Below, piece after piece: positions 22,974 to 36,727 of a stretch of 64,000 nt of DNA (position 1 is the stretch's first letter; each line of letters begins with the position of its first letter). This DNA is from Pseudomonas chlororaphis (lineage in GTDB: Bacteria > Pseudomonadota > Gammaproteobacteria > Pseudomonadales > Pseudomonadaceae), in the NCBI RefSeq assembly GCF_001921865.1, contig NZ_MSCT01000002.1, positions 62,001 through 126,000 on the forward strand, read 5' to 3'. A program made the translations under genes and the position numbers. The notes below the pieces were generated by a model. That model was not told where the DNA came from, did not search any database, and was given only the letters and a program-made list of their open reading frames with translations.

Positions 22974-22989
22974 ATCAAGGAGCGTGCCA
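22974..22989 (-). promoter_or_regulatory. Candidate sigma54 (-24/-12) promoter of hcp
   Basis: On the minus strand TGGCACGCTCCTTGAT matches the -24/-12 consensus TGGCACGN4TTGCW at all fixed positions except C to A in the -12 element. A start site about 12 bases downstream would leave a leader of roughly 55-60 bases before the hcp ATG. Sigma54 control of hcp clusters is known in Pseudomonas. Confidence 0.5.
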
Positions 22990-28930: not shown

Positions 28931-29120
28931 GACGCCATCGCGAGCACGCTCGCTCCTACAGGTCCGGTGTCGTACGTGCGAGCTTTTGTAGGCGCGAGGC
29001 TTGCCCGCGATGCAGGCGCTGCGGTGTGTCTGTCTGGACGCCATCGCGAGCACGCTTCGCTCCTACAGGTCCGGTGTCGTACGTGCGAGCTTTTGTAGGC
29101 GCGAGGCTTGCCCGCGATGC
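28931..29120. repeat. Tandem duplication of an 83-84 bp REP-containing unit
   Basis: Two copies (28931-29013 and 29037-29120), each beginning GACGCCATCGCGAGCACGCT and ending with a facing REP unit GAGGCTTGCCCGCGATGC, differ by a single T insertion in the second. They are separated by 23 bases. The near-identity points to a recent duplication. Confidence 0.85.
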
Positions 29121-29181
29121 GCTCGTACAGCAGAGGTACAGGTGAAGTTTGATATTCTTTATGGGTATTAATAAATAGCTT

Positions 29182-29196
29182 CTTATTCCTTAACGA
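29182..29196 (+). promoter_or_regulatory. TTATTCC motif upstream of the hydrolase gene
   Basis: CTTATTCCTTAACGA lies 57 bases before the ATG at 29254, in the same orientation as the copies before atsK and sftP. Confidence 0.45.
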
Positions 29197-29253
29197 ATAT
29201 AACTCTCGTCCCTATACTCGATCGGGAACAGACACGCAGCAGGAGAGCTCCCC

Positions 29254-29835
29254 ATGCGCAACGAATCAATTCGCTACCTGATTGTGCCGGGCTGGCAAGG
29301 ATCGCCAGAAGATCATTGGCAAAGCCACTGGCAGAACAGCCTGCCGAACAGCGCGCGGGTGGAGCAGGCCGACTGGCTGACGCCGCGGCGTGAAGACTGG
29401 GTCGCGGCGCTGGCCGAGGCGATTGCCGCCGACAGCACGCCGGTGATCCTGATCGCCCACAGCCTGGGCTGCATCACCGTGGCGCACTGGGCGGCCCATG
29501 CGCCGGCTAGCGCCTTGCGCCAGGTGCGCGGTGCCTTGCTGGTGGCGCCGGCGGATGTCGAGCGTCCGGCCTGCGTGCCGGCGCTGCGCAATTTCGCGCC
29601 GATCCCCGGCGAGCCGTTGCCGTTCCCGAGCCAGGTCGTCAGCTCCGACAACGACAGCGCCATCAGCGCGCCGCGGGCCCTGGAACTGGCCCGCAACTGG
29701 GGCGCCGAGGCGGGGATTCTCGCCGGCGCCGGGCATATCAACGTCAAGTCCGGCCACCAGCGCTGGGAGCAAGGCTTCGCCTATCTCTACCGCCTGCAAA
29801 ACCGCATGGAACAGCATGCCCTGCGCCGCGCCTGA
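29254..29835 (+). CDS. RBBP9/YdeN-family alpha/beta hydrolase
   Basis: Small serine hydrolase of 193 residues. It begins with the family segment YLIVPGWQGSPEDHWQSHWQ. The nucleophile elbow is AHSLG (Ser70), the likely acid Asp134 is in SSDNDS, and the base His161 is in GAGHINVKSGH. There is no signal peptide. An AGGAG site precedes the start. The gene is followed 55 bases later by a sigma54-type activator and has a TTATTCC motif upstream, which ties the pair to the sulfur regulon. The natural substrate is unknown. Confidence 0.8.
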   Translation: MRNESIRYLIVPGWQGSPEDHWQSHWQNSLPNSARVEQADWLTPRREDWVAALAEAIAADSTPVILIAHSLGCITVAHWAAHAPASALRQVRGALLVAPADVERPACVPALRNFAPIPGEPLPFPSQVVSSDNDSAISAPRALELARNWGAEAGILAGAGHINVKSGHQRWEQGFAYLYRLQNRMEQHALRRA

Positions 29836-29890: not shown

Positions 29891-30823
29891 ATGAGTCTGC
29901 ATGAGTCTTTCGGTCAGCCGCTGCTGACCTTTCCCGATGCCGAGAAAAGCCCGCTGAGCATCCGCGCCAAGGCGCTGGTGTTCGTCGATCCGCGTTCGCG
30001 GCAATTGCGCCAGGAGCTGGAACAGCTGGCGCCGCGTTCGACCTCGGTGCTGATCCGCGGCGAAACCGGCAGCGGCAAGGAGCTGCTGGCCCGGCATATC
30101 CATCGCGCCAGCGATCGCGGCGGGCTGTTCGTCTCGGTCAACTGCGGGGCCATCAGCCCGACCTACGCCGACGCCGAATTGTTCGGCTATGCCGCCGGCA
30201 CGTTCAGCGGTTCGGCCAGCAGCCGCGCCGGCTGGTTCGGCTCGGCCAACGGCGGCACCCTGTACCTGGACGAGATCGGCGACTTGCCGTTGCCGATCCA
30301 GATCAAGCTGCTGTCGGCCCTGGAAAACCACGAGGTGACCCGGGTCGGCGCCCATCAGCCGAGCCCGGTGGACGTGCGCCTGGTGGCGGCCACCAGCATC
30401 GACCTGGCCCAGGCGGTGGCGGCGGGCAAATTCCACGAGCGGCTGTACCACTACCTGGGCGAAGGGCACCTGGAGTTGCCGGCGCTGCGCGAGCGGGTCG
30501 GCGACATCCTGTCGCTGGCCGAGTACTTCCTCGGCATTTACAGCCAGCGCCTGGACCTGCCGGTGCCGCTGATCAGCGAGGCCGCGCAGCAGGTGCTGGA
30601 GCAGCACAACTGGCCGGGCAACACCCGCGAGCTGGAGAACGTCATTCACTTTGCCCTGCTGGTCAGCAGCGGCGAGGAGATCCTGCCGGAGCACCTGAAC
30701 CTGCCGCCGCAGCTGTCGCGGCTGGAGCAGGTGGATCAGCACCTCAAGAGCCTGGTCGCCGATGGCTCCGCCGCCGAGTTCCAGGCCCTGAAGCACCTGC
30801 TCAAACAGCACGGCCTGCTCTGA
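29891..30823 (+). CDS. Sigma54-dependent activator AAA+ domain protein without a DNA-binding domain (SfnR-like)
   Basis: Enhancer-binding-type protein of 310 residues. Walker A is GETGSGKE (57-64), Walker B GGTLYLDEIGDL (about 121-132), and NWPGNTRELENVIHFALL lies near 240. The loop that normally reads GAFTGA and touches sigma54 is GTFSGS here (103-108). After the AAA+ domain only about 45 residues follow, ending LKHLLKQHGLL, with no FIS-type helix-turn-helix. It also lacks a receiver or sensor domain. The family includes SfnR, which activates dimethyl-sulfone genes; the context supports a sulfur role. It may work with a partner or be a degenerate regulator. Confidence 0.75.
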   Translation: MSLHESFGQPLLTFPDAEKSPLSIRAKALVFVDPRSRQLRQELEQLAPRSTSVLIRGETGSGKELLARHIHRASDRGGLFVSVNCGAISPTYADAELFGYAAGTFSGSASSRAGWFGSANGGTLYLDEIGDLPLPIQIKLLSALENHEVTRVGAHQPSPVDVRLVAATSIDLAQAVAAGKFHERLYHYLGEGHLELPALRERVGDILSLAEYFLGIYSQRLDLPVPLISEAAQQVLEQHNWPGNTRELENVIHFALLVSSGEEILPEHLNLPPQLSRLEQVDQHLKSLVADGSAAEFQALKHLLKQHGLL

Positions 30824-31158
30824 TCGCGTTGCCCATTTCTACGGGCCTTCACGGTCCGCTTCTGTAGCCGCTGCCGAAGGCTGCGATCGACCGGAACGGT
30901 CGTGGCGATCTTGTGGACGTAGGAGGGCCTTCGGCCCTATCGCAGCCTTCGGCAGCGGCTACAGAGACCGTGTGAGTCGCGCCAGGTGCAGGCTAGAGCG
31001 GTTCGGATCTGTATGAATAAAATGGAATATCAACGTGAATAAAAGATATTTTTAAGGAATAAAAAATCCCGGTATCTTCCGCTCCACGCCAGAGATAGCA
31101 CTTCGCTGGCACCTTCATTATAAAAGCCGTCGTCCCTGACGACTCATAAGGACACTGC
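30824..31158. promoter_or_regulatory. Intergenic region with inverted repeat and inverted TTATTCC motif before the MetQ-like gene
   Basis: A long inverted repeat of the GTAGCCGCTGCC family fills 30862-30964. An AT-rich segment follows, containing TTAAGGAATAA (31052-31062), the reverse complement of the TTATTCC motif found before atsK and sftP. The ribosome site AAGGA lies just before 31159. Confidence 0.45.
30862..30964. repeat. Long inverted repeat, GTAGCCGCTGCC family
   Basis: The arms CTGTAGCCGCTGCCGAAGGC and GCCTTCGGCAGCGGCTACAG enclose about 60 bases that include a smaller GGGCCTTCGGCCC hairpin. Confidence 0.85.
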
Positions 31159-31941
31159 ATGAAAAAGGTTCTGTTGTTCACCGCGTTGGCGGCTGCCCTG
31201 ACCGCGGGTATCGCCCAGGCTGGCGAGAAACTGGTAGTAGCGGCCACGCCGGTGCCGCACGCCGAGATCCTCGAGCTGATCAAGCCGACCCTGGCCAAGG
31301 AAGGCGTGGACCTGGAAATCAAAGTCTTCACCGACTACGTGCAGCCCAACGTGCAGGTCGACCAGAAGCGTCTGGACGCCAACTACTTCCAGACCCTGCC
31401 GTACCTGAAAAGCTTCAACGAAGGCAAAGGCACTAACCTGGTGACCGTGATCGGCGTGCACGTCGAACCGTTCGGCGGCTACTCGAAGAAAGTCAAAACC
31501 CTGGCCGAGCTGAAAGACGGCGCGACCATCGCCATTCCGAACGAAGGCAGCAACAGCGGCCGGGCCCTGATCCTGCTGCAGAAAGCCGGCCTGATCGAAC
31601 TCAAGGACCCGAAAAACGCCCTGGCGACGCCGAAGGACATCGCCAAGAACCCGCACAACTTCAAGTTCAAGGAACTGGAGTCGGCCCTGCTGCCGCGCGT
31701 GCTGGACCAGGTCGACCTGGACATGATCAACACCAACTACGCCCTGGAAGCCGGCCTGAACCCGGCCAAGGACGCGCTGGTGATCGAGGGCGCCGATTCG
31801 CCGTACGTGAACTTCCTGGTGGCCCGTCCGGACAACAAGGACAGCGCCGCGATCCAGAAACTGGCCAAGGCCCTGACCAGCCCGGAAGTGAAGGAATTTA
31901 TCGCGAAGAAATACAGCGGCGCGGTATTGCCGGCGTTCTGA
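31159..31941 (+). CDS. MetQ/NlpA-family substrate-binding protein, orphan
   Basis: Periplasmic receptor of 260 residues with a type I signal peptide (MKKVLLFTALAAALTAGIAQA, cleaved at 21) and no lipobox cysteine. The family segments are KLVVAATPVPHAEILELIKP, VFTDYVQPNVQVDQKRLDAN and IAIPNEGSNSGRALILLQKA. The ligand may be methionine or another sulfur compound. The genes downstream belong to another ABC family, and this gene has its own terminator, so it would have to share a MetNI-type permease encoded elsewhere, such as the set at 45415-47185. Confidence 0.85.
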   Translation: MKKVLLFTALAAALTAGIAQAGEKLVVAATPVPHAEILELIKPTLAKEGVDLEIKVFTDYVQPNVQVDQKRLDANYFQTLPYLKSFNEGKGTNLVTVIGVHVEPFGGYSKKVKTLAELKDGATIAIPNEGSNSGRALILLQKAGLIELKDPKNALATPKDIAKNPHNFKFKELESALLPRVLDQVDLDMINTNYALEAGLNPAKDALVIEGADSPYVNFLVARPDNKDSAAIQKLAKALTSPEVKEFIAKKYSGAVLPAF

Positions 31942-35566: not shown

Positions 35567-36727
35567 TCAATCCGGCCAATGCCATGCCGGTTCGTCGAGC
35601 ATGCCCTGGCCGACGATTTCGGTCTGGCCGAAATTCTTTTCCAGCACGATGGCGTTGCACTCCGGGTCCTGTTGCAGGGCGGCGATCAGCCGGCTGGCAT
35701 GAGACACCACCCACACCTGGCAGTCCTGGCTGGCACGGATGATCAGCCGCGCCAGCGCCGGCAGCAGGTCCGGGTGCAGGCTGGTTTCCGGTTCGTTGAG
35801 CACCATCAGCGTCGGCGGTCGCGGCGTCAGCAGGGCGGCGACCAGCAGCAGGTAGCGCAGGGTGCCGTCCGACAGCTCCGCCGCCGACAGCGGCCGCAGC
35901 AACCCTTCCTGATAGAACTCGATGGCGAAGCGTCCGCCCTGCAACGGCGCGATGTTCAACCGCGCCCCGGGGAAGGCGTCGCTGATCGCCCGTTGCAGGG
36001 CCTCGGGGTCGCCGATCTCGCGGATGGTTTGCAGGGCGGCCGCCAGGTCGCGGCCGTCGTGATGCAGCACCGGGGTGCGGGTGCCCAGTTGCGGTTGCCG
36101 CACCGGGGCCTCGGCATCGCTGCGAAAGTGATCGTAGAAACGCCAGCCGCGAATGTTCTCGCGCAACAACAGCACTTCCGGCGAGGAGCGCAGGTTGCCC
36201 ACCTGGTCGAACAGGCTGTCGAAGGTCGGCGTGTGCTGGGCCTGCACGTCCCAGCTGCGCCCCTCACGGGTGCGGATCATCGGCCCGGCGCGGTTGACCA
36301 GCAGGCTGGCCGGGCGATACAGCGGCCCGGCCCAGATGCACTCGCGCTTGATTTCCGGGTCCAGGGAAAACGCCGAGCGGCTGGGTTCCGGCAGGCCCAG
36401 GGCGATGGCGTAGCTGAAGTCCTCGCCGGAAAACCCCAGGCGCAGGCGCTTGGTGCCCTGGCGCACGGTGGACTCGATGGGCACCTCGCCGTTGCGCATG
36501 CGTCGGCTGATCTGCTCCGGGCCGGCCCAGAAGGTCGAGTCCAGCCCGCCCTCGCGGGCCAGTGCGTTGATCACCCCGCCCTGGGCGGTTTCCGCCAGCA
36601 GGCGCAGCGCGCGATACAGATTCGACTTGCCGCTGCCGTTGGGGCCGGTGATCAGGTTCAGCCGCGCCAGCGGAATCACCAGTTTGTTGATCGAGCGGTA
36701 GTTGGCCACTGCCAGGGTCTTGAGCAT
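35567..36727 (-). CDS. AAA family ATPase (RecF/OLD-like, AAA_21 type)
   Basis: Cytoplasmic ATPase of 386 residues of unknown cellular role. The N-terminal MLKTLAVANYRSINKLVIPL is typical of the RecF/OLD/SMC-like group, followed by Walker A GPNGSGKSN (28-36). The signature-like ELSDGTLRYLLLVAALL and Walker B LMVLNEPETSLHPDLLPALA lie in the C-terminal third, and VWVVSHASRL is the switch region. There is no coiled coil and no nuclease domain after the ATPase. A stand-alone gene between REP elements; housekeeping DNA-related or defence roles are both possible. Confidence 0.8.
   Translation of the reverse strand: MLKTLAVANYRSINKLVIPLARLNLITGPNGSGKSNLYRALRLLAETAQGGVINALAREGGLDSTFWAGPEQISRRMRNGEVPIESTVRQGTKRLRLGFSGEDFSYAIALGLPEPSRSAFSLDPEIKRECIWAGPLYRPASLLVNRAGPMIRTREGRSWDVQAQHTPTFDSLFDQVGNLRSSPEVLLLRENIRGWRFYDHFRSDAEAPVRQPQLGTRTPVLHHDGRDLAAALQTIREIGDPEALQRAISDAFPGARLNIAPLQGGRFAIEFYQEGLLRPLSAAELSDGTLRYLLLVAALLTPRPPTLMVLNEPETSLHPDLLPALARLIIRASQDCQVWVVSHASRLIAALQQDPECNAIVLEKNFGQTEIVGQGMLDEPAWHWPD

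Follow-up and report, generated by a model that had tools for sequence, protein, structure and literature searches.

The window analyzed here is a stretch of 64,000 nucleotides from contig NZ_MSCT01000002.1 of Pseudomonas chlororaphis, an organism with a 6.76-Mb genome. It encodes a short AAA+ protein of sigma54-activator descent, which follows a gene for a small serine hydrolase and is itself followed by a MetQ-like gene and then by an amino acid ABC system. The features discussed below are as follows.

29170..29189, + strand: AT-rich element AATAAATA..TTCTTATTCC before the hydrolase gene, from side-by-side comparison of upstream regions
29190..29218, + strand: sigma70-like promoter TTAACG-17-TATACT, from a consensus scan
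29254..29835, + strand: serine hydrolase of the RBBP9/YdeN type (PF06821, 230 bits in Pfam), 193 aa, catalytic triad S70-D132-H161
29891..30823, + strand: AAA+ protein of 310 aa, descended from sigma54 activators but lacking GAFTGA, both arginine fingers, and the helix-turn-helix (HTH)
30059..30082, + strand: Walker A motif GETGSGKE (residues 57-64)
30197..30214, + strand: GTFSGS in the place where GAFTGA is expected (residues 103-108), from ortholog motif counts
30269..30274, + strand: Walker B residues Asp127-Glu128
30431..30457, + strand: arginine-finger helix FHERLYHYL (residues 181-189), with the fingers replaced by His182 and Tyr188
30626..30628, + strand: sensor II Arg246
30707..30820, + strand: C-terminal tail (residues 273-310), weakly constrained and without an HTH, as judged by dN/dS, entropy, and Pfam
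31159..31941, + strand: MetQ/NlpA-type methionine-binding protein, first of the downstream uptake cluster (PF03180, 338 bits)

Conserved and lost motifs

Above the Pfam cut-offs, the 310-residue protein consists of an AAA+ core and its lid only (Sigma54_activat, PF00158, 183 bits against a cut-off of 20.2; AAA_lid_14, 71 bits), with neither a regulatory nor a DNA-binding domain. The original prediction had described an activator with intact Walker motifs, an altered GAFTGA loop, and a missing FIS-type HTH, and this last point was borne out: a Pfam scan at E≤1 found no HTH in either the window protein or its ortholog L182. In the full-length controls P0002 and L285, HTH_8 scored E values of 0.0075 and 0.002, under the Pfam cut-off. 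An HTH hidden in the C-terminal tail was also looked for and not found. Past Leu271, the orthologs carry only 2 to 69 residues, fewer than 15 in 34 of 210, against 59 to 104 in full-length relatives; within residues 273 to 310, dN is close to dS and the mean entropy is 2.55 bits.

Motifs were counted in 210 distinct orthologous proteins and compared with 14 full-length relatives (8 SfnR-like and 6 others from the P. chlororaphis genome itself). The ortholog set comprises 241 loci matching at 56% identity or more, some of whose genomes may have entered through two collections. The Walker motifs are indeed intact, with the Walker A Lys63 present in all 210 orthologs and the Walker B Asp and Glu in 209 and 210, respectively; sensor II Arg246 is likewise found in 210/210. 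The weighted entropy is 0.25 bits at Walker A, 0.15 at Walker B, and 0.17 at sensor II, as opposed to 2.34 at the loop core. The loop does read GTFSGS in the window protein, as first noted, but it is degenerate across the family: Phe105 is found in 16 of the 210 orthologs, Thr106 in 18, and the Glu-Lys pair before the loop in none, and other orthologs display GSQGGT, GAHVGA, GAHNGP, and further variants. Given this variation, GTFSGS does not qualify as a functional alternative to GAFTGA conserved in the family.

These losses of loop and HTH were foreseen; overlooked were the replacements of both arginine fingers, sensor I, the Glu that follows the loop, and, in part of the family, the switch Asn. 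All 210 orthologs have Gly in place of the Glu that follows the loop, whereas the relatives have Glu (13/14) or Asp (1/14). Both finger arginines are present in 14/14 relatives. The first of them, at position 182, which we take to be the equivalent of PspF R162, is Arg in none of the orthologs (His in 122, Asn in 41, Asp in 25, Ser in 12, Leu in 9, and Tyr in 1). The second, at position 188, is equivalent to PspF R168 and is Tyr in 210/210 orthologs, as against Arg in 14/14 relatives; PspF R168, like NtrC1 R299, is described as contacting the gamma-phosphate in trans (PMC7175178). The sensor I Asn is Ser in every ortholog (Asn in 9/14 relatives), and the switch Asn is Ser in 41/210. Thus, the ATP-site residues acting in cis are kept, and those given in trans are lost.

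Weighted entropy falls to zero at Leu185, Tyr188, and Leu189. With 2.34 bits at the loop core and zero at Tyr188, drift is confined to the loop of these two, a new residue having become fixed in the finger helix, and an invariant Tyr at a finger position suggests that the ring face may have been rebuilt for a different contact rather than simply decayed. Structure prediction for the window protein, with 24 relatives at least 85% identical to it as input, gave a mean pLDDT of 41.7 and was set aside.

The AAA+ core shows dN/dS values of 0.025 to 0.093 against 11 relatives and, over 150 random pairs, a median of 0.035 and a maximum of 0.118, so that strong purifying selection on the core is well supported.

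Ancestry and known systems

Searching the P. chlororaphis genome with the window protein returned 24 matches, including the query. The nearest of the others, L002, is a full-length protein of 51% identity, with GAFTGA and an HTH-bearing tail, and is presumably SfnR, judging by similarity. Another sigma54-activator match in this genome (G000:C13:76712-77448) is split into two places in separate open frames and is possibly a broken activator gene.

In a sample of the genus, the gene is found in 181 of 199 genomes (E≤1e-90), and G096 adds one more copy, cut by a contig end. The family sample has it in 97/198 genomes representing 12 of 19 genera (E≤1e-100). In the order sample, 5 of 145 genomes pass 1e-75, and the sole match outside the family, G227, is owed to full-length relatives with GAFTGA. 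In a tree of 55 rows (a quick search with SH-aLRT supports and no bootstrap), all 40 short proteins group together as a single clade (SH-aLRT 99) nested among the SfnR-like proteins; its sister is the full-length L071 (SH-aLRT 90). Descent of the window protein from SfnR-type activators of sulfur scavenging is therefore well supported. Its assignment as the SfnR ortholog was considered and rejected, because it belongs to this separate clade and lacks both GAFTGA and an HTH.

In Pseudomonas, SfnR activates the use of dimethyl sulfone; it is CysB regulated and sigma54 dependent according to the title of a paper cited in PMC8234197. The window protein resembles the SfnR-type L002 in its AAA+ core, in the absence of an N-terminal sensor domain, and in its sulfur context, and it has the N-terminal S[IV]RAxxLVFxDP stretch in common with SfnR-type relatives. 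In contrast to it, those relatives possess GAFTGA or GAYTGA, fingers of the FREDLYYRL type, and an extended C-terminal region that bears an HTH. The full-length sister L071/L285 (genome G291) is 56% identical to the window protein and has the N-terminal stretch PLSIRAKALVFADPRSRQL; unlike the window protein, it has 358 aa, GAFSGA, both finger arginines, and a Fis-type HTH under the Pfam cut-off. It is located in the vicinity of a flavin-monooxygenase-like gene, as read from the sequence.

Both outer domains are also absent from FleT of Cereibacter (Rhodobacter) sphaeroides, which is presented in PMC7175178 as the only known activator without regulatory and DNA-binding domains and which coactivates flagellar genes with FleQ (PMC11999139). 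The likeness is one of domain makeup, and FleT has no sulfur link. TyrR, DhaR, HupR, and VpsR are DNA-binding regulators. They have a broken GAFTGA and have lost the sigma54 contact, as reported in PMC3162934; the window protein family shares that loss but, unlike them, has no DNA-binding domain. It may be included in the supplementary list of defective GAFTGA proteins of that survey. Searches of the open-license literature brought up no account of proteins that have lost the HTH, GAFTGA, and fingers together and retain an intact ATP site.

Gene neighborhood and upstream region

The gene was originally described as following a hydrolase gene under a TTATTCC motif, and this arrangement is confirmed: the motif occupies positions 29183 to 29189, and 55 bp separate the hydrolase and AAA+ genes. 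Among the 179 loci with long flanks, the hydrolase gene lies immediately upstream in 169, with a gap of 9 to 208 bp (median, 57 bp); none of these genes overlap, and none of the 169 loci searched contains a fusion of the two. In the other ten loci, metQ is upstream in nine, and L245 shows only an ABC-ATPase match. The catalytic triad is retained in almost all hydrolases (Ser in 168/169, Asp in 166/169, and His in 168/169).

Across the 199 genomes of the genus, 182 encode both proteins, none the AAA+ protein alone, 11 the hydrolase alone, and 6 neither (Fisher p = 1.5e-7, with shared ancestry ignored). At E≤1e-68, the AAA+ protein is missing beside the hydrolase from G014, G041, G042, G069, G075, G109, G133, G138, G148, G185, and G187; all eleven genomes are 3.5 to 5.0 Mb in size. 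The hydrolase is also found in 15/15 genomes from five other genera, including nine genomes of genus g3 in which the two genes lie apart. In nine g3 loci, the AAA+ gene lies with metQ; in the three g3 genomes examined (L282 to L284), the hydrolase gene is found at tonB-exbB-exbD, preceded by the AT-rich element known from the window. Loci L182 and L183 display the order cioB-cioA-metQ-lyase-AAA+ gene, in which a PLP-dependent Cys/Met lyase-like gene stands between metQ and the AAA+ gene (the cio and lyase names are read from N-terminal sequence). This placement indicates a relocation of the AAA+ gene between the hydrolase operon and a methionine operon, in one direction or the other. Elsewhere, the pair adjoins putative sulfate or taurine uptake genes, again as read from N-terminal sequence. 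In the window, an ATPase gene of the AAA_21/AAA_15 type lies by the transporter cluster (35567-36727, - strand) and is present in a number of related loci.

The tonB-exbBD synteny leads us to regard PA0201 of P. aeruginosa as the putative hydrolase. The order of genes in g3 parallels the adjacency of cioA and PA3931 in P. aeruginosa (PMC6588701), which makes PA3932, annotated as a "transcriptional regulator," the probable ortholog of the AAA+ protein. Table 2 of PMC8466066 gives log2 values of -2.58 for PA3931 and -0.97 for PA3932, which fall together with cysA, cysW, cysT, sbp, ssuF, cysD, and cysN. In the groups reported in PMC6546240, PA0201 is placed with cysA, cysW, sbp, PA3931, and cysD, and PA3932 is in a separate, larger group.

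The AT-rich element before the hydrolase gene, which also reads AATAAATA..TTCTTATTCCTTA, precedes the sigma70-like promoter and, in divergent orthologs, forms a dyad of the GGAATAA..TTATTCC type. The pattern TTATT[CA][CT]TT is found in 164 of 167 distinct upstream regions, in 157 of them at 65 to 74 bases before the hydrolase start; it is missed in L088, L238, and L239, with L088 seemingly representing a wrong start region. A -10-like TATACT or TAGACT is present in most of the upstream regions compared side by side. The hydrolase and AAA+ genes are probably cotranscribed from this sigma70-type promoter. The 6.76-Mb genome contains 3 copies of the decamer TTATTCCTTA and 8 of its reversed control, so the decamer is not enriched genome-wide; the window holds 2 copies against 0.01 expected. 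One precedes the hydrolase gene, and the other, an inverted exact copy at 31053-31062 (- strand), lies upstream of the metQ-like gene; the third genomic copy (L281) is inside an open frame. We refer to the upstream element as a putative CysB-like site, a label given for its sulfur context only. A repeated extragenic sequence (tcgcgagcacgct-tcgctcctacag-like) occupies positions 28940 to 29130, between exbD and the hydrolase promoter.

No sigma54 -24/-12 site was found near the operon, and a scan of the window gave 5 matches against 14.75 expected. A sigma54-like site with one mismatch is located at 22974-22989 (- strand); with fewer such sites than chance would give, it may mean nothing.

Possible functions

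Without a contact loop, arginine fingers, or a DNA-binding domain, the window protein is not expected to perform sigma54 activation in its usual form, and these sequence features make it very probable that it is no sigma54 activator. Two roles proposed originally, action on a partner activator and ATPase activity of another kind, are compatible with these features. Our tentative preference is for a retired activator that would have been redeployed in the response to sulfur starvation, where it would be an ATP-dependent binding subunit acting on the hydrolase. Such a protein would serve as an ATP-binding nucleotide switch that hydrolyzes hardly any ATP by itself, if any, and would act through a partner. 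The likeliest partner would be the hydrolase made together with it, whose activity or location might be controlled when sulfur is short; the choice of this partner is conjectural, guided by gene order and co-occurrence. A broader version, in which the family serves across Pseudomonadaceae as a nontranscriptional ATP switch controlling the serine hydrolase or some other sulfur enzyme, is possible but rather doubtful. Both the lack of fusions and the separate loci in genus g3 speak against the hydrolase as the target, and in the eleven genomes that have it without the AAA+ protein, the hydrolase is independent of the latter.

The invariant Walker B Glu would suit real hydrolysis with fingers from another protein and so favors a different explanation, according to which the window protein joins rings of SfnR-type activators, taking a finger and giving none. 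The output of such mixed rings could be weakened, tuned, or redirected in sulfur starvation, in a manner reminiscent of FleT and FleQ but acting as a brake. This proposal, which we hold to be only slightly less probable than action on the hydrolase, accords with the position of the protein inside the SfnR-like clade and with the retention of cis and loss of trans parts of the ATP site. SfnR is present in 136 of the 182 genus genomes with the gene versus 1 of the 17 without it, 16 having neither (Fisher p = 2.3e-8, shared ancestry being ignored). Mixed activator rings are also on record, PMC9542535 naming HrpR/HrpS, FleQ/FleT, and VnfA paralogs. However, 46/182 genomes have the gene without SfnR, an absence that holds at the sensitivity of the search (E≤1e-95, with 10 candidates per genome scored). 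Furthermore, the P. chlororaphis SfnR gene is on another contig while the hydrolase gene is adjacent, and the sensor I Asn and, in some orthologs, the switch Asn are altered. A separate count (window protein as the query, E≤1e-68) had suggested that 21 of 32 divergent genomes lack SfnR-like proteins; it was dropped because G080 matches with an SfnR query but not in that search.

The protein might instead bind no hydrolase and no activator and take part in the sulfur response as an independent nucleotide sensor or scaffold, with an uptake system or a different enzyme as its target, for example. The varying neighbors (methionine, sulfate, and taurine uptake genes) and the position of the AAA+ gene after metQ and the lyase-like gene in genus g3 are compatible with such a role, but the hydrolase gene is by far the most constant neighbor (169/179), and we consider it unlikely. 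The original suggestion of action from solution, here taken as that of a true sigma54 activator with a relaxed loop, could draw on CtcC, FlgR, and FleT, which PMC3162934 lists as activators without a DNA-binding domain, and on GAYTGS and GSFTGA, regarded as functional in the survey of PMC4641369. The family-wide loss of a conserved loop and of both fingers (210/210) speaks against it, and it is very improbable. That the gene is a decaying pseudogene is hardly credible: despite the nearly neutral tail, an internal stop in some rows, and the 17/199 genus genomes without it, the core has a median dN/dS of 0.035, Walker A, Walker B, sensor II, and the new Tyr188 are invariant or nearly so, and orthologs persist in 181/199 genus genomes and 12/19 genera.

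These results suggest that the "transcriptional regulator" label of PA3932 is wrong for the whole of a widespread clade. If the AAA+ protein is indeed a partner-dependent ATP switch, the family would provide a natural experiment on the capabilities of an activator-type AAA+ core devoid of its loop and fingers, and it would represent a control layer of sulfur starvation, along with an accompanying hydrolase. A nontranscriptional switch would, in addition, mean that this clade of AAA+ proteins has been put to use outside transcription.
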